64,000 nt of DNA from Akkermansia muciniphila. Lineage in GTDB: Bacteria > Verrucomicrobiota > Verrucomicrobiia > Opitutales > Opitutaceae. Location: contig CAMCZZ010000005.1 in the NCBI GenBank assembly GCA_945888375.1, positions 1 to 64,000 on the forward strand, given 5' to 3'. The notes under the pieces were generated by a model. That model was not told where the DNA came from. It searched no databases and saw nothing but the letters and a program-made list of their open reading frames with translations. The position numbers and the translations under genes are program-made. Positions 19,613 through 57,452 of this stretch are shown piece after piece. Position 1 is the stretch's first letter. Every line of letters starts with the position of its first letter.

Positions 19613-22600
19613 TTACGGACTAGCCAAGACCTTCAACCGGTAAAAGCCGGCTGGGACGGCCAGGGCGGACGTGACCGTGATCCGGTCAAGGTTTCCCTCG
19701 GGCGTCACGGAAGTCGTTTCTGGAGTAATCGCGGGCCAGGTGGCGGGATTGGCCAGATCTGTTCCATGGTGGAGGCTCCAGGTTAGTCGCGGGTCTAGTC
19801 TATTCCATCGAAACTGGAGGGTCACGCGTCCGGCTTTTGCTTCGATGATTTGAAAGGGACTCTGGTTGCTGATTTCGGGGTTGGTGCCGAAGGCGTATTC
19901 CAGCAGGTCTGGCAGTCCGTCGCCATCGGTATCGAGCACGGCGCTGGGAAGCGGAATTCGAACGTTTACCGCCACGGGTTGGTCGTGGGTGAGGGAACCG
20001 TCGGTTACCCGGATGGTGAAGGTGTAGGTGGCGGGGCCCTGGGCCTCGGTCGGGGTCCAGGTGAAGGCACCGGTTTCGCTGACGATGGCCGCGCCGGCGG
20101 GAGCGTTGAGCAGGCTGTAAGTCAGCTTGTTCGCGGGTAGGTCGGCATCGGTGGCGGTGGCAGTGAAGGCGAGGAGAACGCCTTCGTTCACGGTCTGGGC
20201 TGGGATGGGGGCGAGCACTGGGGCGAGGTTAGACTCTTTGACGGTCACAAACAAAGGTTGATCGTGGGTCAGGGAACCGTCGCTGACCTGCACGGTGAAC
20301 GAATACGTGCCGGGTCCCTGAGTTTCGGTCGGTATCCAAGTGAAGGCACCGGTTTCGCTCGCGATGGCGGCGCCGGCGGGAGCGTTGAGCAGGCTGTAAG
20401 TCAGGGTGTTCGCGGGGAGGTCGGCATCGGTGGCGGTGGCGGTGAAGGCAAGGAGAACGCCTTCGTTCACGGTCTGGGCCGGGATGGGGGTGAGCACTGG
20501 GGCGGCGTTGGCCTCGGCCAGCGGGACGATGAAGCGCCACTCGACCTGGTCTCCGGTCGTGGAATTGGTCGCCATTGAGTAGGTGGCTGCGGCGGTGGTG
20601 TTGTTATAGGCTAGTTGCAAACGGCGACCGGAGGCCGGATGGCCTAGATAATACCAACCGTTTTGGCTGACGGTGAGCGCCCATTCGACGTTCCCCCCGG
20701 TAGTTCCGGCGGAGACTAGAGTGGGTGCGGCGCCTGCTGCGGAGCTCAGTCGACGCCCGTCGCGGGCGGATACGACATGGTAGCGGTCCGCGACGCCCGT
20801 GGACACCAAGGTCCAATTGACGGGGTGGCCATCGATCCGAATGGATTGCCCGTCCGGTCCGGCGGCGAGGAGGTTGGCCAGGCGTTTTCGGGTGCCTTTA
20901 TGGTGAAGTAGATAAGTTTTATCGGGGCGGATCGTGGTGTCTCCGTCCCACGCGGTGTATAATTTTCCGAAGGCGGTGAGATTGCCCGATGTATCGTAGC
21001 TATTTGATCGGGGGGCGGGCGTATACCTTGTCCATGGGTTGGCGGGCTGGGGATTGTTGGTGTCGGCGGTAAAAATAAACAGGGCATATTTGCGTAAGGC
21101 GGTCAGGTTTTCCGCGCGCCAGAGGAATTCCGCGAGGCACTGGTAGTTGTCCTCTTCGCTCCAGGATTGGTTGCCGCCCCAATCCACAAACGAAAATTCG
21201 GTGAGCCAGATGGGGCGGCCGTAATCATTATACTCACTTTGCACCAGGTTTATTAGATTATTGGACGAGCCGCCGCTCGGGCCGGGATAGGTGTGTATGG
21301 CGTTATACTCGACCCGGTAGCCGAGTCGGGCTGCCTCGTTGTAGAAAAGTTGGTGCCAGCTGGGCGCGCCGGCCGGCGGGTTTAGCGTGCCCGGGGAGGG
21401 GCTGACCAAGGGCTGGTCCAGCGCCATCATCTGGGGCCAAAGTGCGACGCAATCTTCCAGCGAAACATTGGATTGGTCCACGCGATCGGGCTCGTTGAAG
21501 CCCAGAAAGTGAATGCCGTCTCCGCGTTTGCGCCAGGCGGAATAATACTGCCAGATCGGGCCCGGAGTGGTGCCGTAGGACCAGTTGTAGCTGCCCCACT
21601 GCATGGGATTGTAGACTAGGTCGGCCGGCAGGGTTAAAGAGGTGCTTTGTCCCCAGTTATAAAACCACTTCGCGTTCATTTGCTCCGCGAAGCTGCTGTG
21701 GCCGAGGCCTTTTTTGGGCGCCCAGGTAACCTGGTTAAATTTCCATTTTTGAGTGCTGGTCGTGCCTGCAGTATTTTGCACTAGGGCTGTGCCTTCAGCC
21801 GTGGCCCCGCTTTGGGTGTCGATGGCTAATCCGCTCCAAGCGTTTATAATTTGATAAAGCCCGCTGCCGAGTGGTTCGAGAATCCAGTCCTGATGGGGCA
21901 GGGCCTGATAGGTTGCGTCGGTGAGGGCCAAGCCGGCGGTTTTTGAGAGTTGCGCGCCCGAAAGGCAGTTGCCGGTGGCGCGGTTGCGCAGACGATAGGT
22001 GCCGTTGGATAAATTGAGTAATACCTGATACTGGGCTTGCGAGGCCGTGCTTGCGGGCTGGTTCAACGCGGGCTGGCCGCCGCTGGCGACGACGAGGTCG
22101 AGAGTGGCGGCGGGGCTGTGGATCCGGTAAAAGGCGTCGTTGAAGTCTTCGTAGTCCGCGTAGGTGCCGGAGGTGTTGAGGTTGGTGCCAAGCGGGTAGC
22201 CGACGTTGCCGGTGTTGGCCGGGAAGATCTGCAACTCGCGAATTACGGTGGCGGTAGTGCCTGTTTTGGTGAATTCCAGCCGCACTTTGGTGGTGGCGGT
22301 CGGCGTGCTGAATGGGATGATGAGTTCGGCGCTCGTGTTGCCGGTCACGGCGCCACCCGGCAGGTTGAGCCAGGCGCTCCCATTCCAGTATTTCAGGGTG
22401 AAATCCGCGATGGGCGCCACGCCGGTCGCTCCGGAATATAAATGGGCGCTTCCCACTTTCATATTGGAAACCAGCTCGATATCCAGGGTGGTCACACCTG
22501 CGGTTGTGGTTTGCCAGGAGGAGCCGACGTGGGTGCGGCCATCCACGGCATTGAGCGGATAGGCGCCGGGGGTGAAGGCGCTGGCGACGGCCGGTCTCTG

Positions 22601-23671
22601 GTAGGCAAGATTGACCGTAAGATCGGTGCCCAGGGGGTAGCCGGCGGGACCATTTGGCGGATAGAGGGCGAACTCGCGGAGTCGGATCGGGGCATCAAGG
22701 GCAATGAGCCGGAAGGCGCTCGCTGTAATGGAATTCGTAAAGACGAGGTTACGTTCGACGTTGGTATTACCGGTTACATTTGCCCCGGCGATGGTCACCC
22801 AGCTGCTTCCGTTTAAATATTGAATACTAAATTGAGCCAGCGGGGAGGCATCATCAACGCCGCTAAAAACCTGGGCGCTGCCGATCTCGACCGGGAAAGG
22901 AAAATCGATTCGGGCGGTGTTGTAGGCCCACGTTTCGCTCTGCCAGCGGCTATCGTTTCCGGTCTGGCCATCGGTCGCATAGGCGGCGAGCCGATTGCCG
23001 GCCACCGAGCCGGGTGTCATGGTTTGAAATTTGGCGAGGTTTACGCGCTGCGTTGAGACCAATGGGGATGCCATACCCGCCACGCTGAGCGTGGCGCTAG
23101 TGGTCGCGGTGGCTTCATAGGATATGGCGGACGATTTTAGTTTTAACGAGCCGTTGCCGCCGGCGTTAGTGGGTGTGACGGTTATTCTAAAACGTGTGCC
23201 GGTGATGGTTAAATTTGCGCTGAGCGGAGTGTCGAAGGCGAAGACGTATTCTCCGCCTACGGTGAAGGCATAGGTGCCCGTGGCGGTGCCGACGACAACA
23301 TCGTCGGTTCCGCCAATTACCTCGTCTGCCCCGAGATAGGTAAAGGAGACCGCCACGGTGGTGGCATCATTAGCCGCTGCGCTTGTATGGGCTGCGAAAC
23401 CGAAGCCGGTGAGGGTAACTTTTGTCGGTCCCTGGTTGCGTTTGAGCAGGCCGTTGAAGTTGCGATTAAATACGCCGATGCCGGGCTGGTTGATATCGGT
23501 ATCGCTGCCGCCATTGAGGGCGTCATCGATAAAAAATGTCGGCCCCAGGCTGGTTGTGACGTTGCCTGATTGGATGGTGGTGGCGGCGAGCGCGAGTGGA
23601 TTAAGGACGGCGAAAACAAGGGCCTGCCAGCGGGTTGAGAAACGAATAATACAGGATAAATAGTCGATCAT
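19613..23671 (-). CDS. Large secreted multidomain glycosidase, GH128-like (Asl1 fold)
   Basis: 1352 residues from the ATG at 23671 (MIDYLSC, then a signal peptide ending LALAATT); a TTG at 23713 would add 14 residues. Order: beta-sandwich N-terminus, two F5/8-type discoidin domains (about 220-480, each ending LREFALYP or IRELQIFP), a ricin-type lectin domain ([27 protein letters not shown]), the catalytic TIM barrel with acid/base candidate Glu727 (GFNEPD) and nucleophile candidate Glu825 (WLTEFSF), a second ricin-like region, two near-identical putative-Ig repeats, and a [20 protein letters not shown]-terminal module. GH128 enzymes are endo-beta-1,3-glucanases, but specificity here is inferred. 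It follows GH42 by 100 bp. Confidence 0.85.
19970..20510 (-). repeat. Tandem direct repeat encoding two Ig-like domains
   Basis: Two in-frame units of about 92 codons each, differing at only a few residues ([15 protein letters not shown] versus [15 protein letters not shown], and [14 protein letters not shown] in both). The DNA is also nearly identical, so the duplication is recent. The units are putative-Ig (He_PIG-type) spacers in the secreted GH128-like protein. Confidence 0.9.
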
Positions 23672-23771
23672 AAACCAGTGGGTTTCTGCGGGCGTGGATC
23701 TTTTTAAGAGCAAGACTTAGCGTCAGTTGGGTCAGTCCAAAATCCGGTCAATCTGCTTTCCGGCCGGGTTT

Positions 23772-35656: not shown

Positions 35657-36090
35657 TCAGCGGGTGACGCGGAGGCGGAGGAAGCGGCGCGAGTTTATGG
35701 GCTCGGAGTCGGTGACGGTGACGGGCGTGGTGAGGGAGACGGCGCCAGGATTGGTGGCGATGACGACCCAGGAACCGGAGTCGAGGGTGGGGCTGGCTTG
35801 AACCTCGTAGGTCACGGCGGCGCGGGCGCGCAGGAAGGTTAAGGTTAAAGATGAAGTTGAAGAGTTTAGGCCACACACAGGACTGGCTGTGCTACTGGGG
35901 GTTAGTGGATCCGAGCTGAGGGCGTATTCGAGGAGGTTGGCGAGGCCGTCGGCATCGGGGTCGGCGCCGGGGAGCTGGTCGGCGGGCGGGCGGGCGGAGA
36001 GTTTTTCCGCCGCCCAGACGACGAACGGATCGGGCGGCGGGAGGAGGGCGGCGGAGACGATGGCCGAGGGCGCGGAGGTGTAGGCGAGGA
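35657..36090 (-). repeat. Direct repeat copy B flanking the SASA gene
   Basis: The intact counterpart of the fragment at 33506-33965; it encodes the C-terminal LLEYAL module and the end of the FN3 domain of the GH128-like protein. Confidence 0.8.
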
Positions 36091-39079
36091 GAGTGGTGGC
36101 CGTGAGCTGGTAGTGATAGGTGGTCCCGGGCAGGGCGGTGGAGTCGGTGTAGGTGGTGGTGGTGACGTTTGCGTTTAACGTGGTCCACGGGCCGGACGGG
36201 CTGGTGGCGCGGGAGACGGTGTAGCGGGTCGCGGCGCTGACGAGCGTCCAAGATAGGGTGATCGTCGAGGAGTCGACCTGGGCGAGGACGCCGGCAGGGG
36301 CGGCGGGTGGGCCGACGGAGTCGGGGGCGGCAGGGCGGATGAAGCGCCATTTGAATTCGTCGGCGGTCGCGGTGCCGGAGCCTTGGAGCAGCGTGCCGCT
36401 CGAGTTGATTTGCAGCCGGGCGCCGGACTGGGGGTGGGTCAGGAAAAACCAGCCGTGCTGGTCGGCGACGAGGCGCCATTCGCTCTGGGCGGTGAAGTTG
36501 GTGGCGGGGGCGAGGCCGACGTAGGTGCCGGTGAAGTAACGCAGGCGGCGGGCGTCGCGGGTGGAGACTATGCGAACGGTGTCGGCGGTGATGCCGGGGA
36601 TGAGGAACCACTGCGCGCCGTCGGTGGCGCCTTCGGGAGAAGCGGCGGTGACGAGGTCGGTGGGGGCGGAAGGGGGCAGGCCGGGGTTGCGGGCGCGGCG
36701 GTATTCCTTCTTGTTGTGCAGGTGGTAGGCTCGGTCGTTCAAGACGGAGGTGACGCCGTCCCAGCCGGCGTAGAGTTCGCCGAGCGGGGTGAGGCTGCCG
36801 TCGTAACGGATGATGTTCGAGCGCGGCGCCTCGGGAGGGTCGGGCGAGACGGGCGGCGGGGCGTCGGGCGCCTCCTCAATGTATCCGAAGATGGAATACC
36901 GTTTCAACCAGGGCAGGCCCTCGGCGCGCCACATGAACTCGGCGAGGAAGTTGTAGCTTTGGGCCTCGGTCCAGGTGCCGTTGCCGGACCAGCGGGTGTT
37001 GCCAAACTCGGTCAGCCAGACGGGGCGGCCGAAGTCGTTGTAGGCCCGGGTGAGCAGGTTGATGAAGGTATCCGAGTTGGGCGGATAATAGAGGTGCATC
37101 GCGGTGTAATCACGACGGTAGCCGAGGGCATCGACCCGGGTGACAAACTCCGCAAACCAAGGGCCGAACGTGTTGGCGGCGGCCGGGGCGACCAGCGGGA
37201 CATCGCGGGCCTCGAAGCGGGGCCAGCGCCGGATGGCCTCCTCTACCAGAACGTTACCCTGTTCTTCGTGTTCGGGCTCGTTGAAGCCGAGGAGGGAAAC
37301 GGGTTTGCCGTTCGATTGAAGATCGCGGTGCAAGCGGTCGAGCGGAAGGCGCGTGCTGTCGCCATGGTTCCAGCCGGAACCGCCGCCCCAGAGCATGGGG
37401 TTGTGGGTGAAAGCGGCGTCGAGGTAGGGGAAGGTGTCGCTGCTTTGGCGGTTCCAAGTGTAGCTCCAACCGGCGTTGAAGCGGTGGTAGAAGTCCTGAT
37501 GAAACGTGAGGCCGGGTGCGGCGGTGTAGCGGGTGCCGATGATGCTATTCGTGGCGGCGATGCCTTTTTTGGGGTGGGGGCGTCGGAAGGATGCGGTCCA
37601 TTGCTGGAAAGGGTTTGCTGGTGAGTCGGTAGCGACGACCAGCGAGGTGCCGGGGGCGGAGGCTTTGCCGAGCGGCTGGAGGGCGTGGCCCGAGTAGGCG
37701 TTGAAGAGGGAGAACCGGGCCGGGTTGGCGGCGTCGTAGATCAGGCGCCAGTCCTGGTGAGGCAGGGCGGAGTAAGTCTCGGCCGTCACGGAAATGCCGG
37801 CGGTGCTGCTGATCTGGGACAGGGCAAGGCAGTGGCCCGTGACTGCATGGCGAATCCGGTAGGTGCCGTCGCGGTAGTTGAGCAGGAGCTGCCACATGGT
37901 GTGATCCGGGGAGGTCGGATTGTCGGCGGTGGCGGCCACGGAGTCTTCGACGAGCCCGATGTTCAGGCCGGAGCCGACGTTGTTCACGCGGTAGAACGAA
38001 TCGGAGTAGCGCTCAAACGTGTCGGAGGGGGGGGCGGCGTCGAGCACCCCCAGGCCCAGCGGGTAGCCGCCGGCGCGGGGAGGGAAGAGCAGCAATTCTT
38101 GAAGTCGGGCCGGAGTGGGGCTGGTCGTGACCATGCGGATACGCGTCGTGAATACGGGCGAGGCGAACGCGAGGGCGCGGGCGGTGTGGGTGTTGCCCGT
38201 AACGGTGGCGCCGGGGATGGGGAGCCAGCCCGTGCCGTCCCAGTATTCGAGTGTAAAGTCGGGGATGGGCGACGAGCTGGCGCGGGCGGCATCCATCACT
38301 CCCGAGTAGACATGGGCGGAGCCGACGCTGTGGAGGGACAGGAGATCGACCTCGATGGACTCGCCGCTGGCGTAGGCGTTGGCGACGGGGTTTACGAGCC
38401 AGCGGGAGCGGTTGTCGAGGTAGCCGTCGAAGGCGTTTTTGGCGTAGCCCGGGCCGTTGGCGTTGACCAGTTGCGCGGAGGAAGCGACGGCGGGGCGCTG
38501 GTGGGCGAGGTTGAGGGTGACGTCGGTGCCGAGTGGGTAGCCCTGCTCGACGCTGCCGGCGAGATTGGGCGGGAAAAAGGCGATTTCGCGGACGGTGAAG
38601 AAACCGTTGTTGATGCCGAGCAGGCGGAAGCGCGAGGCGGTGACGGACTGGGGGAAAAGGGTGGCGACCTCGGGGGCGGTGTTGTTGAGGACGGAAGTGA
38701 TGGTAACCCAGGCTGAGCCGTCGAAATATTGATAACGGTAGCTGCTCAGCACCTGAGTTGGGGTGGCGGTTTCGAACAGGCCGGAGTAAAGGTGGGCGCT
38801 CGCGATGGTGACCGGTCGCGGGTAGGTGAACTCCAGAGTAAAAAAGTTGGTGTTGATGTTATTGGTGCGCAGCGAGTGAAAGTTACTCACGATGCCGTCG
38901 GTGGCGAAGTCGGCGAGGTAGCTGGTGTTGACCGAGCTGGCGACGGCGGGCTGGAACTTGGCGAGGTTGAAGCGCTGCGCGTGGGCGGCGCTGGTGATCG
39001 AAAGAGCCAGGAACCAGAGAAGCTGAACCCCCTTGTGAATGAGAGTCGGGTGGCGAGGTAGGTGGGGGCGAAGCTTCAT
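35657..39079 (-). CDS. Large secreted multidomain glycosidase, GH128-like (second copy)
   Basis: 1140 residues with signal peptide (LLWFLALSITSAAHAQ). Order: two discoidin-like domains (about 35-340, each ending VREIAFFPP or LQELLLFPP), ricin-type lectin (QDWRLIYDAANPARFSLFN), catalytic barrel beginning KKGIAATNSIIG with acid/base candidate Glu601 (GFNEPEHEE) and nucleophile candidate Glu691 (WLTEFGN), a second ricin-like region, a fibronectin-III-like domain (about 945-1035) and a DPDADGLANLLEYAL C-terminal module. It parallels the 1352-residue protein at 19613 but has FN3 in place of the Ig repeats. GH128 suggests beta-1,3-glucan cleavage; the actual substrate is uncertain. Confidence 0.87.
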   Translation of the reverse strand: MKLRPHLPRHPTLIHKGVQLLWFLALSITSAAHAQRFNLAKFQPAVASSVNTSYLADFATDGIVSNFHSLRTNNINTNFFTLEFTYPRPVTIASAHLYSGLFETATPTQVLSSYRYQYFDGSAWVTITSVLNNTAPEVATLFPQSVTASRFRLLGINNGFFTVREIAFFPPNLAGSVEQGYPLGTDVTLNLAHQRPAVASSAQLVNANGPGYAKNAFDGYLDNRSRWLVNPVANAYASGESIEVDLLSLHSVGSAHVYSGVMDAARASSSPIPDFTLEYWDGTGWLPIPGATVTGNTHTARALAFASPVFTTRIRMVTTSPTPARLQELLLFPPRAGGYPLGLGVLDAAPPSDTFERYSDSFYRVNNVGSGLNIGLVEDSVAATADNPTSPDHTMWQLLLNYRDGTYRIRHAVTGHCLALSQISSTAGISVTAETYSALPHQDWRLIYDAANPARFSLFNAYSGHALQPLGKASAPGTSLVVATDSPANPFQQWTASFRRPHPKKGIAATNSIIGTRYTAAPGLTFHQDFYHRFNAGWSYTWNRQSSDTFPYLDAAFTHNPMLWGGGSGWNHGDSTRLPLDRLHRDLQSNGKPVSLLGFNEPEHEEQGNVLVEEAIRRWPRFEARDVPLVAPAAANTFGPWFAEFVTRVDALGYRRDYTAMHLYYPPNSDTFINLLTRAYNDFGRPVWLTEFGNTRWSGNGTWTEAQSYNFLAEFMWRAEGLPWLKRYSIFGYIEEAPDAPPPVSPDPPEAPRSNIIRYDGSLTPLGELYAGWDGVTSVLNDRAYHLHNKKEYRRARNPGLPPSAPTDLVTAASPEGATDGAQWFLIPGITADTVRIVSTRDARRLRYFTGTYVGLAPATNFTAQSEWRLVADQHGWFFLTHPQSGARLQINSSGTLLQGSGTATADEFKWRFIRPAAPDSVGPPAAPAGVLAQVDSSTITLSWTLVSAATRYTVSRATSPSGPWTTLNANVTTTTYTDSTALPGTTYHYQLTATTLLAYTSAPSAIVSAALLPPPDPFVVWAAEKLSARPPADQLPGADPDADGLANLLEYALSSDPLTPSSTASPVCGLNSSTSSLTLTFLRARAAVTYEVQASPTLDSGSWVVIATNPGAVSLTTPVTVTDSEPINSRRFLRLRVTR

Positions 39080-40528: not shown

Positions 40529-42631
40529 TCAGCGTTTCTTTCCAAGCGGCGGTTGAGTGCGCCAGATGGTTTCCAGCAGGTGCAACAAGTCCACCTTCTC
40601 CTGTTCGGCCAAAGGATACATCACTTCGGCCAGGCGGCGGCTGTAAGAAGTGATTTCGGGGTAGGGGGTGTCGGTGACATCCACAAAACCGATTTGATAA
40701 TTCTCGCCGGGTTTGCCGACGGTGGGGCGGGCGGCGGCGGATTGATCGGGGAAGGCGAACCAGTGGGTGCCGATTACATCGGGCTGGATGACCGCATCCA
40801 AAACGTAGGCGGCATAGGCGCGGCTGCGTTGCAACTGGTCACCGACAAAAGTCAGCCCCACGCCGGGAACGCCACGGTCCGGCGCGCCAAAGTGAAACTC
40901 CGCGACCAAGGCGGGTTTATCAAACCCCGTGGGCACCCCGGCGGAGGGCAGGGGCATGTAGCGGTTCACGCTCACGACATCGCAATAGCGGGCGCACTCC
41001 TCCATGATCGCGAGCGGGGCCTTGTGGATGCGCGAGCCGAGGTAGAGGTGGTTGGGGAGAATCTTGCGCATCAGGTTGTGGCAGACTTTATAGTAACGAG
41101 CGCCGATCAGACGTTCGAGCTCCTTGCGGTCCTCGGCGAATCCCGCGGAATCGGCGGGTGTGGTCTTCAGGGTGTCCCAGGATTCATACTGGGTGGCCCA
41201 AGCGGCGTTGAGTTTTTCGAGCGTGGCGTATTTTTCCTGCAACACGGCCACCACGGCCTTGCGCGCGGGCATGTCGAGATCACCCGCAAGCGCGTTGCCG
41301 ACGATGTTTTCATACCAGGTGAGCTCGTTGTCGATGAACACGCCTAGGCACCAAGGGTCCGAGGCCACGGATGCCTGGAACGTCCGCAAGCCTTCCTCGA
41401 CGCGTTTTTCGAACTCCGTGGAGAAGGGATCGGCGACGTTTTTGCCGAGGGGATTACCGCCGCGCCAGACATGCAGAATCGGTGTATAGGGTGTTTTCGG
41501 GTTTTTATACAAAGCGGGGTCCGACCAGGCGCCGATCGTATTCATGCCCCACTGGCGCAGGCGGGTATGGACCCGGTCGTAGGCCTGGCTCCGCCAGTCC
41601 GGCCCGAAAGTCCGGTGCAAGTTGGCGATCATGAAGTTTAGGTTATCCTTTTTCCGCGCATCACCGATGTCCGATTCCGTGGGTATCCAGCTGAAAAGGG
41701 ATTCGCGGCCTTTGACCGAAGTAGGTTGTTCGAAGCCTATGGAATTCGCTCCATGGGAAAAAAACAATCGTCCCTCGGGGTCCACGAACCACCAGCGCCC
41801 TTTGTATTTTTCGGTGCGGAAAAACCCGGTGGCCTTTAACTGCGGGCCGTCGGCCCAGCCCCCGTAGCGGTTAAATGCTTTTGGACTGGAGGCCGTCGCG
41901 GTGGTTGCGGCTTCTTTTTTAGCGCGCGCCACGAGTTCCGCTTCGGAGTGCGTCTTCCCCGGCCAGCCGAGCTGGCGAACCTGGCCAAATCGGTCCAGGT
42001 AGGGCAGCTCCATGAGTTTGGGATTGGCGGCGATGCCGAAGGGCTGGGCCAGGCTGACCTCGATGTCGGCGAGATCGAGTTTTGTGGAGGTCGAGCGAAT
42101 GACTAAACGACAGGCCCGCACGTCCTCGGGTTTGAAGTGCATCCAGTGATAACGAAACCCGTTTGGCCGCGCGCCCATCGGATAATAAAGAGCCGGGGTG
42201 TCGTCCGCGCTTTGGTCGCGTTGGAAGGGGAAGCCCAATGTCGCCCGTTCCCCGGGGAGAATATAGGCCTGGGTCGAGGAGCTGTCCTGCCAATCGAGGG
42301 CACCTTCGTTGTCCAGACGCCCCCGGAGCCAGACGATCCCGTCGCTCCGGTTGGTGATATCCACCCGAAAATAGGAGAAGGCGGAGATATCCCACGTGCC
42401 AGCTATGGATTTTAATACGACGGTGCAGGACTTTTCCGGAAGCTCGCCGGAAAGTCGCAGGTTTCCTGTGCTTGATAGCGTGGTTTGCACGGAAGCGGGG
42501 GCGGTGACCGCGATGTCCTTGAGTTGAAGGTGCGGCTTTAATAAATCTTCCACCTGGATGGGCGCGTCCCCGCCCTTTATCAGCGAGGAAAAAAGAACGA
42601 AGAGCGTGATGGAGAATATATTAGTTTTCAT
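40529..42631 (-). CDS. Secreted GH50-like (beta-agarase-type) glycosidase
   Basis: 700 residues with signal peptide (FSITLFVLFSSLIKGG). The N-terminal half (about 30-220) is a carbohydrate-binding-like beta-sandwich. The catalytic part opens KGRWWFVDPEGRLFFSHGANSIGF, typical of GH50, with acid/base candidate Glu436 (GVFIDNELTWYEN) and nucleophile candidate Glu578 (LVAEFHFGAPDRG). Characterised GH50 members are beta-agarases, but many homologues in Verrucomicrobiota lie in loci without agar, so a related beta-galactan or other target is possible. It overlaps the upstream GH29 by 11 bp, suggesting coupling. Confidence 0.85.
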   Translation of the reverse strand: MKTNIFSITLFVLFSSLIKGGDAPIQVEDLLKPHLQLKDIAVTAPASVQTTLSSTGNLRLSGELPEKSCTVVLKSIAGTWDISAFSYFRVDITNRSDGIVWLRGRLDNEGALDWQDSSSTQAYILPGERATLGFPFQRDQSADDTPALYYPMGARPNGFRYHWMHFKPEDVRACRLVIRSTSTKLDLADIEVSLAQPFGIAANPKLMELPYLDRFGQVRQLGWPGKTHSEAELVARAKKEAATTATASSPKAFNRYGGWADGPQLKATGFFRTEKYKGRWWFVDPEGRLFFSHGANSIGFEQPTSVKGRESLFSWIPTESDIGDARKKDNLNFMIANLHRTFGPDWRSQAYDRVHTRLRQWGMNTIGAWSDPALYKNPKTPYTPILHVWRGGNPLGKNVADPFSTEFEKRVEEGLRTFQASVASDPWCLGVFIDNELTWYENIVGNALAGDLDMPARKAVVAVLQEKYATLEKLNAAWATQYESWDTLKTTPADSAGFAEDRKELERLIGARYYKVCHNLMRKILPNHLYLGSRIHKAPLAIMEECARYCDVVSVNRYMPLPSAGVPTGFDKPALVAEFHFGAPDRGVPGVGLTFVGDQLQRSRAYAAYVLDAVIQPDVIGTHWFAFPDQSAAARPTVGKPGENYQIGFVDVTDTPYPEITSYSRRLAEVMYPLAEQEKVDLLHLLETIWRTQPPLGKKR

Positions 42632-44679: not shown

Positions 44680-45663
44680 TTAATCCAGATTGGCGGGGCG
44701 GGGCTCGGCGGCGGCCGCGTCTTTTTTATCTAAGGGCGGCAGCGGGATCAGGACCGCGGCGCGCACGGCGGCCTCCGCCTCGCGATACTTCGGATGTTGA
44801 TAAACCCGTATATAATCGCACAGCACGGCGTTCGGTAGCTTGGACTCATCCACCCAGCGGTCTCCCTTGAGGGTGCTGGCGATGACGCTCATCCAGACGC
44901 TCATCTCGTCGTGGGGAAAACCGGCTGAGCTGATCTCTTTGGTGAGGCGGCCGTTGAAATAGAAGCGCGTCACTTCCGGGGTAAACTCACAGCCCCAGAT
45001 ATTAAAGGAAAGGGAGGTGTCTGGTGCGTCCTCGATCACCCAGCGGCCGGCGTTCCAAGACTGGCGGTTTTTCCGCTGGTGCCAGCGGGACTGATTGATG
45101 ATGCCGAAGCTATAGAAATGGGGATCGCCGCCGTCCTGCTCGCAAAAGTCCAGTTCCAGGAGCGCAGGTGGTCCGGGAGGTTGATCGGGGAAGCGTTTCC
45201 GCATCGACCAGAACGCGGTATGCCAGCCCTCGACCCCAGGGGTTTGGAAACGCGCCTCGTAATAACCGTAAACAAAGGTCCGCCGGCTGATCACACCGCC
45301 GCCGGTGTAGTCCTTGCCACGGACTGACTCCTTGCGCAGGGCGATTTCGAGGTTGCCGTCCTTGACCGAGATATTCTCCGGCTGCTGCGTGCTCAACATC
45401 TTGCTGTCGATGCGGAAACCCCAGGTCGCGGTGTCGATTTTTTCACCATTGAACTCGTCGGCGAAAACCAACTCGTAACCGGCCGGGGGCAGGGGAGTGA
45501 CCTCGGCCGCGAGCTGCACCGGGATGTGGATCTTGCTGGTGAATTTTGGGCGCTTCGCGGTGCGATCTGACATCGCGGGAGCAGACTCCGCGGCGGTCAG
45601 CGCTGGGGTGACGAGGGCTACGGCAAGAGCCAGGCAACACAGTAGGACGCGGGGATATTTCAT
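44680..45663 (-). CDS. Secreted GH16-family endo-glycanase
   Basis: 327 residues with signal peptide (VLLCCLALAVALVTPALTAAE). The beta-jelly-roll shows ELVFADEFNGEKIDTATW, YGYYEARFQTPGVEGWHTAFW and the catalytic ExDxxE motif as Glu170-Leu-Asp172-Phe-Cys-Glu175, followed by GDPHFYSFGI. GH16 covers agarases, porphyranases, kappa-carrageenases, laminarinases and others; the ELDFCEQ motif with HxFY suggests a galactan-type enzyme, but this is a guess. It heads the left block, preceded by a 231-bp gap with hairpins and direct repeats. Confidence 0.93.
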   Translation of the reverse strand: MKYPRVLLCCLALAVALVTPALTAAESAPAMSDRTAKRPKFTSKIHIPVQLAAEVTPLPPAGYELVFADEFNGEKIDTATWGFRIDSKMLSTQQPENISVKDGNLEIALRKESVRGKDYTGGGVISRRTFVYGYYEARFQTPGVEGWHTAFWSMRKRFPDQPPGPPALLELDFCEQDGGDPHFYSFGIINQSRWHQRKNRQSWNAGRWVIEDAPDTSLSFNIWGCEFTPEVTRFYFNGRLTKEISSAGFPHDEMSVWMSVIASTLKGDRWVDESKLPNAVLCDYIRVYQHPKYREAEAAVRAAVLIPLPPLDKKDAAAAEPRPANLD

Positions 45664-47764: not shown

Positions 47765-48334
47765 TTACTTCGCTGGGGTCGGGCTGAAGGCTTGGCGCAA
47801 CCGGCGCTCCGCGTCGCCGCTCCAATAGCCGCAGTCGAGTTCGAGGAAGACGGAGGTGTAGGGCAGGGTGAGGTTGGTCTTCAGGATGAGGATGTGGAAG
47901 GTCGCGCCAGCTTGGTCGAGTTTGGCGATGATCTGCTCGTGCGGCAGGGTGTTGACCGTTCGTCCGGTCAACAATTCCGCGAGCTCCTTCCGGTAGGTGG
48001 CGATGCCTGGGGCGTCCGATTCGGCCACATGCGGCAGCTCGGCGTCGGTGTATACCACGGGGCGCACGTGCGATTGGCGGTCCAGGAGGGAGAGCACGTG
48101 GCGGAGCACCTCGGTCTGCCCGGCTTCGGTGGTGATGGTCTCGATGCCGGACCGGCTCTGGGCGGGGTAGGCGGCGTCGGCGATGACGATCCAGTTGCGG
48201 TGGCCGTAGAGTTGCGCCCGGGCGGCGACGATTTGCTGCCAGCCGGGGGCGGCGTCGGCGGCGCGGATGCCTTGCAAGACGGGGGTGAGCGGAGAAAGGG
48301 CAAGCAGCGCGAGGAGGAAAGTTTTGGCGATCAT
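47765..48334 (-). CDS. Exported RbsD/FucU-like sugar mutarotase
   Basis: 189 residues. After a signal peptide (MIAKTFLLALLALSPLTPVLQG) the segment LYGHRNWIVIADAAYPAQS (His45, Asp53) resembles the GHGD...VIADAN...P start of RbsD/FucU pyranases and mutarotases, and the C-terminal TNLTLPYTSVFLELDCGYWSGD resembles their terminal active-site segment. FucU interconverts alpha- and beta-fucose; RbsD converts ribose forms. Those characterised are cytoplasmic, so the clear signal peptide is unusual. Lying between GH116 and two GH29 fucosidases, it probably equilibrates freshly released fucose in the periplasm before import. The family call is by recall of motifs. Confidence 0.75.
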   Translation of the reverse strand: MIAKTFLLALLALSPLTPVLQGIRAADAAPGWQQIVAARAQLYGHRNWIVIADAAYPAQSRSGIETITTEAGQTEVLRHVLSLLDRQSHVRPVVYTDAELPHVAESDAPGIATYRKELAELLTGRTVNTLPHEQIIAKLDQAGATFHILILKTNLTLPYTSVFLELDCGYWSGDAERRLRQAFSPTPAK

Positions 48335-51653: not shown

Positions 51654-53159
51654 TTAGCGGCCGAAGGTGCCTGGGCGGACGGGCGTCACCGGGGTGCCGT
51701 CCTCGTAGAGGGCGGGGAGCGAGGAGGCGGGGCCGACGCGGATGACCGGGTGGTCGATCTGCGCGAGAGTGGCGGGGATGGTGAGGACGAGGCCTCTCGC
51801 GCCGTCGCGCTTCACGTCGAGCCACTGACGGGTTTCGAGCACCTGGGCGCGGAACTCGACCGCAGGGTCGGGCAGGACGAGCGGTTGGGGAAGCTTGAGG
51901 TCGCCGGCGGGGAGCGGTTTAAGCAGGAGAAGATTAAAGTGGGGCGGCGTGCCTTCGGGGTGGAGGGTGGCGCGGACGTTGACGGGCAGGGCGTCGGGCG
52001 CGAAGGGGCTACGGCGGGTGGGTTGGAGGGCGGATTCGTTGATCTCCATCCACGCAGCGAATTCGCGGAGTCGGCGTTTCGCGGCCTGTTGAAAGGAGCC
52101 GTCGGACATGGGGCCGACGTTGAGCGTTATGGCGCCGCCGAAGTGGGCGTTGGTGATAAGCGAGTCGAGGAGCTGGTCGAAGCCGCGCCACTGGAAGTCG
52201 AGGCGGTGGTAGCCCCAGGCGTGGTTCATCGTGGCGGGCGTTTCCCACGGGACCTTGGGGGCGTCGGAGGCGTCGGGAAATTGATTGTCGCCGAGCGAAA
52301 TGAAATCGGCGCCGGCGGGGTCGTGCGCGGCGATGCGGCCATTGATCATGCAGGCGGGTGCCTTGGCGCGGATGAGCGCGATCAGCTGGTCGCGGCGGGC
52401 GGCGGTGACCTGGTGGCGAGCGCCCTTACCCCAGGTGTCGAACCAAAACATGGCGGGTTGGTAGCGCTCAATCAGCTCGGTGACCTGGGGGAGGCATTTG
52501 CCGGTCCAGTAGTCTTCGAACTGTTCGTCGGTCGGCTGGACGAGGGGCGGATCACCGCGCATCTCGGGCCAGGGGGGCAGGGCGCCGCCGGGGTGTTCCC
52601 AATCCTGCCAATGCGAGTAATAGAAGCCGAGTTTCACGCCGTGTTTGCGGCAGGCGGCGGCGAGTTCACCGAGGGGATCGCGCCCGCCGGCACCGAAAGG
52701 GGTGGAGGCGATATCGTAGGTGGAGACAGCGGAGTCCCAAAGGGCGAAGCCGTCGTGGTGTTTGGAGGTGATGACGAAGTAGCGCATGCCGGCCCGGGCG
52801 GCCAGGCCGATCCACTCGTCGGCGTCGAAGCGGACGGGGTTGAACTGTGAGAGCAGGGAATCGTAGTCCGCGCGCGGGATGCCGCCGCCGGGCTGGGGCC
52901 AGCGCCACTGGGTGCGGATCCACTCGGAGTAGTGGTTGCGCCCCATCTCTTCGCCCTGCCAGACGCCGGCGGGCAGCGAGTAGAGGCCGAAGTGGATGAA
53001 CATCCCGAAGCGGGTGTGCGCCATCCAGTTTCCGCCTTGGTCATGGAGCGTGGTAGCGGGCGTGCTGGTCACCGTGTAGGGGGAGGCGGTTTCGGCGGCG
53101 TTGGCGGCTTGGCTGGCGAGGGTCATGAGGAGGAAGCCGAGGGTGCGGAAAGGCGTCAT
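51654..53159 (-). CDS. Secreted alpha-L-fucosidase (GH29)
   Basis: 501 residues from the ATG at 53159 (MTPFRTLGFLLMTLASQAANA, signal peptide); the frame to 53360 overlaps the sulfatase gene and is not used. GH29 landmarks: WMAHTRFGMFIHFGLYSLPAGVWQGE, TSKHHDGFALWDS, GFYYSHWQDWEHPGG, nucleophile Asp241 (AMFWFDTWGKG) and ITLNVGPMSDGSF. A short C-terminal beta domain completes it. The start overlaps the upstream sulfatase stop by ATGA, repeating the sulfatase-GH29 coupling of the left block. Confidence 0.94.
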   Translation of the reverse strand: MTPFRTLGFLLMTLASQAANAAETASPYTVTSTPATTLHDQGGNWMAHTRFGMFIHFGLYSLPAGVWQGEEMGRNHYSEWIRTQWRWPQPGGGIPRADYDSLLSQFNPVRFDADEWIGLAARAGMRYFVITSKHHDGFALWDSAVSTYDIASTPFGAGGRDPLGELAAACRKHGVKLGFYYSHWQDWEHPGGALPPWPEMRGDPPLVQPTDEQFEDYWTGKCLPQVTELIERYQPAMFWFDTWGKGARHQVTAARRDQLIALIRAKAPACMINGRIAAHDPAGADFISLGDNQFPDASDAPKVPWETPATMNHAWGYHRLDFQWRGFDQLLDSLITNAHFGGAITLNVGPMSDGSFQQAAKRRLREFAAWMEINESALQPTRRSPFAPDALPVNVRATLHPEGTPPHFNLLLLKPLPAGDLKLPQPLVLPDPAVEFRAQVLETRQWLDVKRDGARGLVLTIPATLAQIDHPVIRVGPASSLPALYEDGTPVTPVRPGTFGR

Positions 53160-54673
53160 GGCTGGCGGTTTTTTTGGGGTTTCCAGGGGGCGAGTCGGTT
53201 CATGTCCCGCCGCCAAAGCCGGAGGCGGTCCCACTCGGCGCCGGTGGCGGTGGCGGGGTCGAAAACGGAGGGGTCCACGTCGACGTAGACCTTGCGGTAT
53301 TCGGCTTCCTGAAAGGCGGGGTTGGGCTCGTTGTGTCGGGCATCGTTCGCGGTGCGCCAAGCGGCCAGCGCGGCGCGCATCGCGGTCACGCGGTCCGGGT
53401 GGCGGGTGGCGAGATCGTGTTTCTGGCCGGGGTCGGTGGGGAGGTGGTAGAGCTCGGTTTTGTCCGCGTCGTAAAACTCCACCAGCACCCAGTCGCCCGC
53501 GCGCATCACGCCGGAGGGGCGACCGCCTTGATTGGTGTAGTGCGGGTAATGCCAGAAAAGCGGACGGTCCGTGAAGGCCTGGCCGGCGAGGCCTGCGGCG
53601 AAGCTCACGCCATCCAGGCCCGGGGGGATCTCGAGCCCGGCGAGCGCGAGCAGGGTCGGCAGCCAGTCCACGTTATTCACCGGGCTGTCCACCACGCGGC
53701 CGGCGGGAATGCGGCCGGGCCAGCGCACGATTAGCGGCACGCGGGAGCCGCCCTCGTAGGTGTGGCCCTTGCCGGCGCGAAACGGGGTGTTGTGGGTGAT
53801 GCGCGCGTGGCCGCCCTCCGGCACGTGCAGGCCGCCGTTGTCGGAGGTGAAGACGACGAGGGTGTTGTCCGCCAGGCCGAGACGCTCGAGCTCGGCGAAC
53901 AGTAGCCCGACCGAGTCATCGAGGGTCTCGATCAGGGCGGCGTAAACCGGTTCGAAGGCGCGGGCGTTTTTCTCCACCAGCGCGGCGCGGGCGGTGAACG
54001 TAGCGTGCGGGGTGTAGTGGGAAAGAAAGGCTAGGAAGGGGCGGGAGCGATCGGCCTGGAGAAAGCGCAGCACCTCGCGGGTGAGCTCGTATTCCGCCTT
54101 GCCTCCTTCGGTCTCGGACGGGGTGGTGTTCTTGCTGTCGCCGGGATGGTAAACTACCTCGAAGCCGTGCGCGGCGGGTCCGGGGGACTCGCCCACATGC
54201 CATTTGCCGAAAAAGCCGGTGGCGTAGCCGGCCTCGCGGAAGTGGCGCGGCAGCATCGGCACGGAAAGCGGGACGGTCAGAGCCATCTCGGCCTGAAGCA
54301 CGCGTTGGGAGACGGCGTTGGGGCGGCCCGGGATCCAGTCCGTGATGTGCAGGCGGGCCGGGTTCAGGCCGGTGAGGAGCGCGGCGCGGGAGGGCGAGCA
54401 AACTGCCTGCGCGGCGTAGGCGGACGTGAAGCGCACGCCTTGCGCGGCGAGGCGGTCAAGGTGCGGGGTGTGGTGGTCGGCGCGCCCGTAGCAGTGGAGA
54501 TCGTTCACGCCAAGATCATCGCAGAGGATGAACAGCACGTTGGGTCGCGCGGACGCCGGGGGTTCGGCTGCGCGGGCGGTGGTCGTCCCGGCAAACGTGA
54601 GGCCCGCGCCGGCGAGCAGCGCTATAATGGCGCGAACTCGGGCGAGCCGGGGCGAAGCTAGCGGGCGGATCAT
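53156..54673 (-). CDS. Exported sulfatase (FGly type, S1 family)
   Basis: 505 residues from the ATG at 54673 (MIRPLASPRLARVRAIIALLAGAG, signal peptide); upstream residues to 54766 lie inside the neighbouring gene. PNVLFILCDDLGVNDLHCYG and CSPSR (Cys92, formylglycine site) define the sulfatase; FFGKWHVGESPG, FTSDNGGLHVPEGGHARITHNTPFRAGKGHTYEGG and ELYHLPTDPGQKHDLA are typical. It is coupled by ATGA overlaps to the clan GH-A gene upstream and to GH29 downstream, implying tight stoichiometry. It needs a maturation enzyme encoded elsewhere. Confidence 0.95.
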   Translation of the reverse strand: MIRPLASPRLARVRAIIALLAGAGLTFAGTTTARAAEPPASARPNVLFILCDDLGVNDLHCYGRADHHTPHLDRLAAQGVRFTSAYAAQAVCSPSRAALLTGLNPARLHITDWIPGRPNAVSQRVLQAEMALTVPLSVPMLPRHFREAGYATGFFGKWHVGESPGPAAHGFEVVYHPGDSKNTTPSETEGGKAEYELTREVLRFLQADRSRPFLAFLSHYTPHATFTARAALVEKNARAFEPVYAALIETLDDSVGLLFAELERLGLADNTLVVFTSDNGGLHVPEGGHARITHNTPFRAGKGHTYEGGSRVPLIVRWPGRIPAGRVVDSPVNNVDWLPTLLALAGLEIPPGLDGVSFAAGLAGQAFTDRPLFWHYPHYTNQGGRPSGVMRAGDWVLVEFYDADKTELYHLPTDPGQKHDLATRHPDRVTAMRAALAAWRTANDARHNEPNPAFQEAEYRKVYVDVDPSVFDPATATGAEWDRLRLWRRDMNRLAPWKPQKNRQP

Positions 54674-56088
54674 TTGAAGAACAGTTTTTTGGGGCGGCGC
54701 GAATCGGAGAGAGGATCGGTGGCGGGGGAAGGAATGGCGACCGTGTCGGTGTTGGCGGGCGGGCACGCGGCGGCCATGGCCTGCTCCTCGGCGGTCAGCA
54801 CCTTGAAGGGCAGCACGCTGGCCGAAGCGCCGCCGTGCCCGTCGAGGGCGTAGGCCATGACGAGGTATTCGCCGGGGGAGGCAGGCGCGACGGTGATGGC
54901 GTTATCGCCGGAGGTCTGGGGGAAGGGGCCGGCGAGAGGCGTGACCTTGCGGGTCTTGGCCTGGAGTATCCAGGTAACGAAGGTGACTCTGTCGCCGTCC
55001 GCGTCCTCGGCGGCGAGGTGGAGGGGCAGGGTTTCGCCGGGTAGGGCGGTCCGTGATTTGGCGCCGGCGGCAAATTCGATCCGCGAGAGGACGGGCGCGC
55101 GGTTGCCGGTGATGGGGCGGCGGGTGAAATGCTCGGTCATCAAATCGGCTTGCGGAGTCCAGAGCAGCTGGTCGAAGGAGGCCGTTTTTTTCGGCCCGGC
55201 GGGATCGGCGTCGAGCAGTGTGCTGAAATAGGTGGGGCGGTCGGCCACCCCGTAGTGTCCCCAGACAAAGATCGTCGAGCCGAGGCAGAGCGGCGACGCA
55301 TCGATCGCGGCGTAGCAATCCTTCAGGTCGGCCACCTTGCGCGTCACCGGCTCGTCCACCGGGCAGCCCCAGGCGGTTTTGGCAAAGTTCCAGGGGCCGT
55401 TGGTGTTGAACTCCGACAGGTAGAACGGTTTCCCCCAGTGCGTCTCGGCGTTTCTGATACCGCCGCGCACCGCGCCGCGCGAGTAGCATTGGATGCCCAG
55501 CACATCGAGATTGGGGGCGAAGCGTTTGATCTTCGCGATGTCGTCCGGCTTGGCGTTGATCATCGTCAGGCTGGTCAGGTGGTGCGGGAAACGCTCGTGG
55601 ATGGCGAGGGACAGGCGGTTCACGACGTGCAGGTAGGGCTCGTCGAGGTGGACCTCGTTGCCCAGGCCCCACATCAGGATGGCAGGGTGGTCGCCAACGG
55701 CCTCGAGTTTTCGGATAAAGTTGGCCGTCAGCTCTTCGCCTTTCGCCGAGTAGTCGAAGGTCCACGGGTAGCCGTCCTTTGTTTTGTTCACGCCGTGATG
55801 GGGCATCCATTCGCTCACGATCATCTTCAGGCCGAGGCGTTGGGCCTCGTCGAGTTTACGACGCATCGCGGCGTTGTTCTCAAAGGTGTAGCCGCGGACG
55901 GCGTTCACGCCGATCGAGGCGAGGCGTTCGAGGTCGACGTCGCCGCAGACGCCCTTGATTCGGAAATTCTCGAACGGGGCGTAGCGCAGGCGCTCGGCCT
56001 CGGTCGCGTCAGGCGGCACGACAAAGGCTCGGGCCAAGGCGGAGCAGCCCAGCGCGAGGAGGAAGAAAAGCGAGCGGGGGAGGATCAT
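54670..56088 (-). CDS. Secreted clan GH-A glycosidase, family unassigned (copy 1)
   Basis: 472 residues with signal peptide (RSLFFLLALGCSALARA). A short N-terminal part (FRIKGVCGDVDLERLASIGVNAVRGYTFE) leads into a TIM barrel with MIVSEWMPHHGVN, acid/base candidate Glu145 (MWGLGNEVHLDEPYL) and nucleophile candidate Glu226 (FYLSEFNTNGPWNF). An Ig-like domain follows (NRAPVLSRIEF to ASVLPFKV, about 345-440), then a polar tail ending KKLFFK. The layout recalls GH2-type or GH5-type barrels, but I cannot place it in a named family. Its neighbour at 56115 is a close paralogue. ATGA overlap links it to the sulfatase. Confidence 0.8.
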   Translation of the reverse strand: MILPRSLFFLLALGCSALARAFVVPPDATEAERLRYAPFENFRIKGVCGDVDLERLASIGVNAVRGYTFENNAAMRRKLDEAQRLGLKMIVSEWMPHHGVNKTKDGYPWTFDYSAKGEELTANFIRKLEAVGDHPAILMWGLGNEVHLDEPYLHVVNRLSLAIHERFPHHLTSLTMINAKPDDIAKIKRFAPNLDVLGIQCYSRGAVRGGIRNAETHWGKPFYLSEFNTNGPWNFAKTAWGCPVDEPVTRKVADLKDCYAAIDASPLCLGSTIFVWGHYGVADRPTYFSTLLDADPAGPKKTASFDQLLWTPQADLMTEHFTRRPITGNRAPVLSRIEFAAGAKSRTALPGETLPLHLAAEDADGDRVTFVTWILQAKTRKVTPLAGPFPQTSGDNAITVAPASPGEYLVMAYALDGHGGASASVLPFKVLTAEEQAMAAACPPANTDTVAIPSPATDPLSDSRRPKKLFFK

Positions 56089-56114
56089 CGCGGTGGGAGG
56101 ATGGGGCAGCGTGC

Positions 56115-57452
56115 TCAGGGCTGGGCGGCGCTGGATGTCGGGGCGACGTCACCGGTGACGGGCACGGGCACCTTGAACGGCACGGTGCTGGCGGAAGCGC
56201 CGCCGCGGCGATCGTGCGCGTAGGTCATGAGCAGGTATTCGCCGGGCGTCGCGGGGGCCGCGATTTCAGCGTGTGCGGCGGACGTCTGGGCGAAGGGGCC
56301 GCCGACGCGGGTGGTCTTACGGGCGGACGAATCGAGAATCCAGGTTACGAACTCGATCGGGTCGCCGTCGGGGTCCTCGGCGGCGAAGCGGATGGTCAAG
56401 ACCTCGCCGGGTTGGGCCAATCTGGCTTTCTCCCCGCCGTCGAACGCCAGATTTGTCAGCACGGGGGCGCGGTTTCCTTTGGGCGGCGAGCCGGTGAAAT
56501 GCTCGATCATCACCTCGGCTTGGGGTGTCAACAGCAGGTGATCGTAGGCGCTCGATTTGGGCCGGCCGTTGGGGTCGGGATCGAGCAGTAGGCTGAAATA
56601 GGTCGGCCGGTAGGTGGTGGCGTGGCCCCACAGGAAGATAGTCGAGCCGAGACAGAGCGGCGAGGCGTCGATCGCGGCGTAGCAATCCTTCAGGTCGCTG
56701 ACTTTTTTCGCCACCGGTTCGTCCAGCGGCACGCCCCAGGCGGTAGCGCCGAAATTCCACGGCCCGTTGGTGTTGAACTCCGACATGTAGAACGGTTTTC
56801 CCCACAACAGCTCGGTCTTCTTGATCGCACCGCGCACCGCGCCGCGGCTGTAGCTCTGCACCCCGAGCACGTCGATATCGGGCGCGAAGGCCTTGATCGC
56901 GGCGATGGCGGGCTCCTTGGCGTTCACCACGGTCAGGCTCGTCAGGTGATGGGGGAAACGGCGATGGATCTCCTCCGACATGCGGTTCACCACGCGCAGG
57001 TAGGGCTCGTCTAGGTGCACCTCGTTGCCCAGGCCCCACATCAGGAGCGCAGGGTGGTCCCCGATGCCCTCGACCTTGGCGATCAGGCTTTCGACCATCG
57101 ACTCGCCCCGTGTGTTGTAGTCGAAATCCCAGGACGATCCGTCTCGGCCCTTGTTTTTCCCCTGATGGGGCATCCACTCGCTTACGACCATTTTGATGCC
57201 CACGCGATGGGCTGCATCGAGCTTTGCGCAGGTTTCCTTGACGGAGGGGATGGAGTAACCACGCACGGTATTGACTCCCAAACTGGCGAGACGCTCAAGG
57301 TCGCGATCACCGCAGACGCCGCGAATCTGAAAGGACTCGAAACGCGCCAGCCTTTTGCGCTCGGGCTCGGTGCTGTCTTTGGGCACCGTAAAGATTTGGG
57401 CTGGAGAAGAAACAGCCAGGCAGAGCAGACCCAGCAGGGGGATAAGTTTCAT
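56115..57452 (-). CDS. Secreted clan GH-A glycosidase, family unassigned (copy 2)
   Basis: 445 residues with signal peptide (LIPLLGLLCLAVSSPAQ). It mirrors the downstream gene along its length: FQIRGVCGDRDLERLASLGVNTVRGYS, MVVSEWMPHQGKNKGRDG, acid/base candidate Glu144 (MWGLGNEVHLDEPYL), nucleophile candidate Glu225 (FYMSEFNTNGPWNF) and the Ig-like C-terminus NRAPVLTNLAFDGG to ASTVPFKV. It lacks the polar tail of copy 1. The 26-bp gap and same order show a tandem duplication. Retention of both copies suggests related but distinct substrates. Confidence 0.8.
   Translation of the reverse strand: MKLIPLLGLLCLAVSSPAQIFTVPKDSTEPERKRLARFESFQIRGVCGDRDLERLASLGVNTVRGYSIPSVKETCAKLDAAHRVGIKMVVSEWMPHQGKNKGRDGSSWDFDYNTRGESMVESLIAKVEGIGDHPALLMWGLGNEVHLDEPYLRVVNRMSEEIHRRFPHHLTSLTVVNAKEPAIAAIKAFAPDIDVLGVQSYSRGAVRGAIKKTELLWGKPFYMSEFNTNGPWNFGATAWGVPLDEPVAKKVSDLKDCYAAIDASPLCLGSTIFLWGHATTYRPTYFSLLLDPDPNGRPKSSAYDHLLLTPQAEVMIEHFTGSPPKGNRAPVLTNLAFDGGEKARLAQPGEVLTIRFAAEDPDGDPIEFVTWILDSSARKTTRVGGPFAQTSAAHAEIAAPATPGEYLLMTYAHDRRGGASASTVPFKVPVPVTGDVAPTSSAAQP

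Follow-up and report, generated by a model that had tools for sequence, protein, structure and literature searches.

Two neighbouring genes in a 64,000-nucleotide stretch of Akkermansia muciniphila DNA (the window; contig CAMCZZ010000005.1, C5 in our numbering) encode P0001 and P0002, a pair of related proteins that we assign to glycoside hydrolase (GH) family 158 as a divergent subfamily. With moderate confidence, we propose that they are retaining endo-β-glycanases acting on the backbone of a fucosylated, sulfated polysaccharide. P0002, a GH158-related and probably exported glycoside hydrolase of 445 amino acids (56115..57452, minus strand), and its paralogue P0001, with 472 amino acids (54670..56088, minus strand), are both complete open reading frames (ORFs). 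They are separated by a gap of 26 bp and share 61-62% identity in our alignments, far above chance. The motif GLGNEVHLD starts at residue 141 in P0001 and 140 in P0002, and SEFNTNGPWNF at residues 225 and 224, respectively. Both N-termini form a hydrophobic segment, which makes export of the two proteins plausible; no lipobox was found in the N-terminal sequence of either. The first-pass annotation of this region had described two adjacent, exported proteins at 54670-57452 with these two motifs in common: the ORF coordinates are exact, both motifs are located in both proteins, and export is probable.

Homology of the pair to GH158

Searches against solved structures with phmmer gave the strongest matches to two GH158 enzymes. 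P0002 matched GH158(Pro) (9oro) at E = 5.7e-33 and BuGH158 from Bacteroides uniformis (6pal) at E = 2.1e-25; the values for P0001 were 1.3e-29 and 1.5e-24. The alignments of both proteins cover nearly the full length, spanning a (β/α)8 barrel and an Ig-like domain. GH158(Pro), the best sequence match in the PDB, is represented by entries 9ORO, 9P25, 9P26 and 9P2F, which include soaks with laminaritetraose and G4G3G. When a profile of six proteins from the branch described below was searched against the solved structures, only GH158(Pro) and BuGH158 fell below E = 0.001, and the next match was a GH2-like entry at E = 0.0059. Neither P0001 nor P0002 has a Pfam or NCBIfam match above the curated cut-off. 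PF02836 (GH2) reached 15.4 and 11.8 bits for the pair, below its cut-off of 21, and PF03198 (GH72) reached 16.7 bits (E = 0.0048) on P0002, below its cut-off of 25.9, and was not listed for P0001. The best solved GH72 match to P0002 was far weaker than GH158 (E = 0.25, phmmer). No GH5 family was found among the listed Pfam matches, from which the HMMER filters drop most matches above E of about 0.1. The weak GH2, GH72 and GalB matches look like ordinary clan GH-A resemblance.

AlphaFold2 models computed from 15-row alignments (mean pLDDT 87.7 and pTM 0.85 for P0002; 82.6 and 0.82 for P0001) both feature a (β/α)8 barrel followed by a C-terminal β-sandwich, with two glutamates following strands β4 and β7. 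According to DSSP on the model and the ranges of the structural alignments, the P0002 barrel covers residues ~32-322 (56487..57359, minus strand). The strands of the model place its Ig-like domain at residues ~331-428 (56169..56462, minus strand), and the structural alignment to GH158 reaches residue 430. In the P0001 model, the barrel spans residues ~32-322 (55123..55995, minus strand) and the Ig-like domain residues ~333-430 (54799..55092, minus strand), where residues 346-425 give a PKD match at E = 0.0022, under the Pfam cut-off. VIA-align, which was run on the P0002 model, superimposed it on 6PAL with Z 37.8 (rmsd 3.0, 370 residues) and on 9P25 with Z 37.7 (rmsd 2.5, 368 residues). The best non-GH158 structures were a GH2 β-glucuronidase and a β-galacturonidase at Z 19.8, and GH5 structures reached Z ~19. 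For both models, Foldseek rows 1-6 are all GH158 entries. The fold described for GH158, a (β/α)8 barrel with a C-terminal eight-stranded Ig-like domain (PMC7157763), is thus found in the predicted models of both proteins. GH2 barrels (β-glucuronidase, β-galactosidase) share the clan GH-A barrel with the pair but differ in their accessory domains and give no significant full-length match. We rejected GH2 membership, where the Pfam match is sub-threshold, and GH5 membership, where no Pfam match is listed and structures align only at Z ~19; both sequence and structural matches prefer GH158.

In BuGH158, mutating N136, E137 or E220 led to a loss of activity, and the reaction retains the anomeric configuration (PMC7157763). 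The aligned residues in P0002 are Asn143 and Glu144 after β4, the latter being the predicted acid/base (57021..57023, minus strand), and Glu225 after β7, the predicted nucleophile (56778..56780, minus strand). In P0001, the predicted acid/base is Glu145 (55654..55656, minus strand) and the predicted nucleophile Glu226 (55411..55413, minus strand). We verified the BuGH158 chain numbering through the 83-residue spacing between E137 and E220. Both glutamates are conserved in all 15 branch and all 43 canonical sequences of our comparison set. The pair Glu145/Glu226 that had been named as catalytic is correct for P0001, whereas the equivalents in P0002 are Glu144/Glu225. The earlier reading as clan GH-A paralogues agrees with the pairwise identity and the predicted barrels, and the C-terminal Ig-like domain is seen as a β-sandwich on both models. 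The same annotation had suggested an unassigned GH family and had named a GH158 match beforehand as evidence to the contrary. Because such matches were found (E to 5.7e-33; structural Z ~37.7), this suggestion is not supported in the form given. Sequence matches and predicted models together make homology to GH158 over the barrel and the Ig-like domain well supported.

A divergent branch with altered active-site loops

We compared 15 branch proteins, namely P0001, P0002 and 13 others from the Planctomycetes-Verrucomicrobia-Chlamydiae (PVC) group, with 43 canonical sequences (41 relatives and the two solved GH158 enzymes); relatives were drawn solely from matches for which a locus was available. 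In an unrooted tree, the 15 proteins form one side of a branch that is supported at 100/100; its stem measures 1.95 changes per site. The tree has no outgroup, and the founding member Vvad_PD1638 is not in the set by name. L026, L029, L030, L031 and L075 were left out as short or very divergent, and L032 and L046 were never used. L047, L052-L054, L056, L061, L064, L068 and L076 repeat places already present and were not added; neither were L033-L035 and L045, which repeat L004-L007. L015 and L017 were trimmed to 420 residues. BuGH158 sits on a long branch, and its grouping with the 15 proteins was not rejected in an approximately unbiased (AU) test from which L024, L025 and L072 were additionally omitted (p-AU 0.245). 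Within the branch, P0001 groups with L039 (98/98), and P0002 with proteins from four other genomes (95/91). Since the two paralogues have different tree partners, the duplication predates this genome, and we rejected a recent tandem duplication; of the original label 'tandem paralogues', adjacency and paralogy stand, and a duplication within this genome does not.

Identity to the solved enzymes is low throughout the branch: 24.0% to BuGH158 and 25.8% to GH158(Pro) for P0002, 23.7% and 23.9% for P0001, and 24.7% and 24.9% on average for all members, compared to 33.8% and 40.0% for the canonical relatives. A profile built from the 41 canonical relatives scored 477 bits on GH158(Pro), 351 bits on BuGH158 and 179-225 bits on the 15 branch members (E <=8.3e-52 at a database size of 177,635). 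Among decoys from the window, GH42 scored 11.9 bits and Glyco_hydro_cc, GH116, GH29 and GH16 proteins gave no match. The very divergent relatives L030 and L031 scored 207 and 78 bits; given the score of L030, a value near 200 alone marks no family border. We call the branch a divergent GH158 subfamily because its grouping with BuGH158 is not rejected and the root is not fixed. A weaker but real form of the suggested separate family stands: the pair belongs to a branch of its own next to the canonical GH158s, with altered active-site loops and, in most members, other gene neighbours. We met no characterised member of the branch in this analysis.

The active site of (β/α)8 barrels forms in the loops following the barrel strands. 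Six positions that are near-invariant in the 43 canonical GH158s are altered in every branch member (BuGH158 numbering; L024 was omitted from the canonical set in one position comparison). Glu139 is a glutamate in 41 of 43 canonical sequences and in none of the branch (13 His, 2 Pro), and Glu228 in 42 of 43 and none (Asn, His or Trp). Thr278, present in 42 of 43, is an arginine in 15/15 branch proteins; Trp281, invariant in the canonical set (43/43), is replaced throughout, by tyrosine in 14 cases and aspartate in the other. The lysine and glutamate of the β8-loop motif occur in 41/43 and 42/43 canonical sequences and 0/15 branch sequences. Asn195, found in 43/43 canonical sequences, is kept in 1/15. 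The canonical cleft signature of E139, E228, W281 and N195, which is our own description from the 43 sequences and no CAZy rule, is therefore missing in the branch. In contrast, all 15 members retain both catalytic glutamates, the preceding asparagine, G230, W232 and W275. The β3-α3 loop of P0002 is extended at residues 99-108 (57129..57158, minus strand, by alignment): all ten positions of this insert are filled in 15/15 branch proteins, compared to two of ten in 42 of 43 canonical sequences and seven of ten in the remaining one. In the P0002 model, positions 99-108, 146, 233 and 278-285 lie in loops after barrel strands, and position 199 lies within β6.

Not every branch member is equally altered. 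L044, from Verrucomicrobia subdivision 3, retains canonical residues at five positions (65, 91, 199, 227 and 244) and shows the branch state at further ones, for example 152 and 282; judged from its sequence, it looks intermediate between canonical GH158 and the branch. Its gene, at 1191-2363 of the locus, is followed by a GH2 gene. We also considered whether the histidine in place of E139, the asparagine in place of E228 and the arginine in place of T278 mark a pocket for an anionic substrate. We do not rely on this idea, as the net charge of five loop regions shows no clear shift (branch and canonical means, respectively: β1-β2 0.93 and 0.70; β3 -0.27 and -0.35; β4 -2.80 and -2.77; β7 -2.93 and -2.51; β8 0.00 and -0.33).

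Compared to its nearest known counterparts, the pair shares with BuGH158 (PDB 6PAL) the barrel and Ig-like domain, the equivalents of N136, E137 and E220 and nearly full-length homology. It differs from it in its low identity (24%), its longer β3 loop and the loss of E139, E228, N195, T278, W281 and the β8-loop lysine and glutamate. BuGH158 carries a lipoprotein-type signal (PMC7157763), whereas the pair has no lipobox. GH158(Pro), at 24-26% identity, has the cleft signature that is missing in the pair. The genome also encodes a third GH158 paralogue (G000:C9:83769-84932), which is 33% identical to P0002 over residues 39-430 (E = 2.4e-41). Unlike the pair, it falls in the canonical group and is 42.5% identical to GH158(Pro), and its 17-kb locus (L079) holds no other gene matching the window's proteins.

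Distribution and gene neighbourhoods

We scanned genome_contigs (84,980 species) with two branch peptide patterns, a search that misses members lacking these peptides. It returned 14 loci, 13 of them belonging to the branch; the record titles all denote metagenome-assembled genomes. The branch loci are labelled as Opitutaceae (six, from four assemblies), Phycisphaerales (two), and Verrucomicrobia, Akkermansia, Verrucomicrobiaceae, Planctomycetaceae and Verrucomicrobia subdivision 3 (one each). Among 141 relatives, matches of at least 64% were confined to the window's genus group, where they came from 5 of the 15 genomes searched. Two other genomes carry two copies each, on separate contigs.

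With the proteins encoded in the window serving as search library (E 1e-10), we compared the neighbourhoods of the 13 branch loci (mean length 12.6 kb) with those of 20 canonical loci (16.6 kb; 20 fetched and 20 counted, drawn from the 41 canonical rows and the two solved enzymes). GH29, sulfatase, agarase-like and GH128-like genes each appeared in 5 of the 13 branch loci, and SASA genes in 6, compared to none of 20 canonical loci for any of them; GH16 genes occurred in 4 and 5 loci, respectively. At least one of the GH29, sulfatase, agarase-like and GH128-like genes is present in 10/13 branch loci and 0/20 canonical loci. In L033, L034 and L045, a close relative of the window's GH16 (73-78% identical) comes immediately after the P0002-type gene, with agarase-like and GH29 genes next in line; in L033 and L034, two agarase-like genes flank the GH29 gene downstream of the P0002-type gene.

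The window itself holds five GH29 genes (28688, 31950, 42621, 45895 and 51654) and three sulfatase genes (30418, 39106 and 53156), which bears out the earlier description of the pair as embedded in a sulfatase-fucosidase block. SASA-type esterases, GH116, GH42, GH43, GH16, two Glyco_hydro_cc proteins and a major facilitator superfamily transporter are also found around the pair. The sulfatase adjoining it (53156..54766, minus strand; PF00884, E = 3.1e-57) shares 97 bp with the end of P0001 when its start is taken from the longest ORF; the true start seems likely to lie downstream of that position. A GH29 α-L-fucosidase lies at 51654..53360 (minus strand; PF01120, E = 2e-73), and a GH16 enzyme, whose best solved match is the laminarinase 8xph (E = 8.8e-14), at 44680..45663 (minus strand; PF00722, E = 8.3e-10). 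The GH29 protein at 42621 matches both 6gn6, named as a fucosidase (E = 8.6e-46), and the exo-α-L-galactosidase 7ljj (E = 2.6e-26). An agarase-like, GH50-type enzyme of 700 amino acids (40529..42631, minus strand) has no Pfam or NCBIfam match and aligns with the β-agarases 6xj9 (E = 3.2e-71) and 4bq2 (E = 2.3e-70), which we take to be GH50 enzymes; the solved matches of the Glyco_hydro_cc proteins are presumably GH128. These two proteins (35657-39079 and 19613-23713, both minus strand) are very large and carry the Glyco_hydro_cc domain behind RicinB lectin domains, the second additionally with Ig-like domains. An RbsD/FucU-like protein within the fucosidase block (47765-48334, minus strand; Pfam E = 9.5e-07) is consistent with fucose use. 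Past the window (L077, contig C5, 64000-83999), the block continues with two further sulfatases, a GH43 and a protein with a marginal GH42 match. A whole-genome search for GH3 gave two matches, on contigs C25 and C4, and none on contig C5. As in the window, the BuGH158 locus has a GH16 gene; it is a SusC/D-GH3 glucan locus (PMC7157763), whereas the pair sits among fucosidases and sulfatases.

Proposed function and competing readings

We propose that P0001 and P0002 would act as exported retaining clan GH-A β-glycosidases by the double displacement of GH158, as the conserved residues suggest, in which the glycosyl-enzyme would form on Glu225 in P0002 and Glu226 in P0001, and Glu144 or Glu145 would serve as acid/base. 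The altered β3, β4, β7 and β8 loops would reshape the subsites. The gene context points to a fucosylated, sulfated and perhaps acetylated substrate, GH158 ancestry to a β-1,3 bond, and plain laminarin is made less likely by the altered subsites. The pair would thus cleave internally a β-linked, most likely β-1,3, backbone of such a polysaccharide, alongside the fucosidases, sulfatases and acetylesterases encoded with it, and the two old paralogues may divide labour between backbone variants. The bolder idea that this PVC branch next to GH158 rebuilt its active-site loops and thereby acquired a new specificity, endo-cleavage of a fucosylated, sulfated backbone, is one that we put forward tentatively and that may well prove wrong.

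Several points weigh against our proposal. The basal members L042, L043 and L044 lack the fucosidase and sulfatase context, which is therefore no property of the whole branch. The neighbour library was taken from the window and favours branch loci in the comparison; several of these loci come from close kin or one genus, including two pairs from one assembly each. The net charge of the five loop regions gives no support for a pocket fitted to a sulfated chain. The pair is only 24-26% identical to solved GH158 enzymes, its substrate and activity are deduced from context and homology, and other glycans may be the targets of the co-encoded genes.

Two readings that change the substrate are each unlikely. 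The proteins could be ordinary GH158 endo-β-1,3-glucanases on laminarin-like glucan in an incidental neighbourhood. β-1,3-glucanase is the only activity of the family that we met (PMC7157763), the title of a PDB entry records GH158(Pro) crystals soaked with laminaritetraose, and the same block contains a GH16 with a laminarinase as best match and the GH128-type proteins. However, E139, E228, T278, W281 and the β8-loop lysine and glutamate are replaced in every branch member, the genome already holds a canonical GH158 elsewhere, and contig C5 has no GH3. A galactan backbone is also possible given the agarase-like and GH42 neighbours: the pair could be endo-β-galactanases, a similarly doubtful prospect, acting on a sulfated galactan of the agaran type that contains L-fucose or L-galactose. 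The presence of agarase-like genes in 5/13 branch loci and 0/20 canonical loci and the match of the GH29 at 42621 to an exo-α-L-galactosidase would fit, but that protein matches the fucosidase-named 6gn6 better, and GH42 occurs in 0/13 branch loci, some of which are short. We know of no GH158 that cuts galactan, which we count against this reading.

The remaining readings concern what the proteins are. It is rather improbable that the branch forms a clan GH-A family in its own right, with its own CAZy number, even though it has full support, a long stem, ~25% mean identity to the two solved enzymes (34% and 40% for canonical relatives) and a cleft signature that is mostly gone. The nearly full-length matches, the shared Ig-like domain and catalytic residues, the intermediate L044 and the AU test all speak for inclusion in GH158, as does the founder Vvad_PD1638, itself only 29% identical to BuGH158 (PMC7157763). 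It is very unlikely that the pair are transglycosidases or binding proteins instead of hydrolases: the sub-threshold resemblance of P0002 to the glucanosyltransferase family PF03198 is set against a best solved GH72 match far below GH158, and both catalytic glutamates and the preceding asparagine are present in 15/15 members. We conclude that the pair is a subfamily-level variant of GH158 and do not claim a new kind of system.

To our knowledge, enzymes that cut the backbones of fucose-rich sulfated polysaccharides are poorly known. Verrucomicrobia have been linked to the breakdown of such polysaccharides (PMC8857213; PMC5615132). In the paper listings searched for GH158, including those with GH50, no title concerned this branch and none named GH158(Pro). 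The branch offers a concrete candidate backbone enzyme: its catalytic residues are predicted, a structural template exists, and its specificity is expected to differ from that of laminarinase GH158s. GH158, of which we met a handful of characterised members, holds at least one deep branch in which we met none. We found no record of endo-cleavage of a fucosylated, sulfated backbone for GH158; if our proposal is true, this activity could warrant numbering the branch as a new GH subfamily or family.

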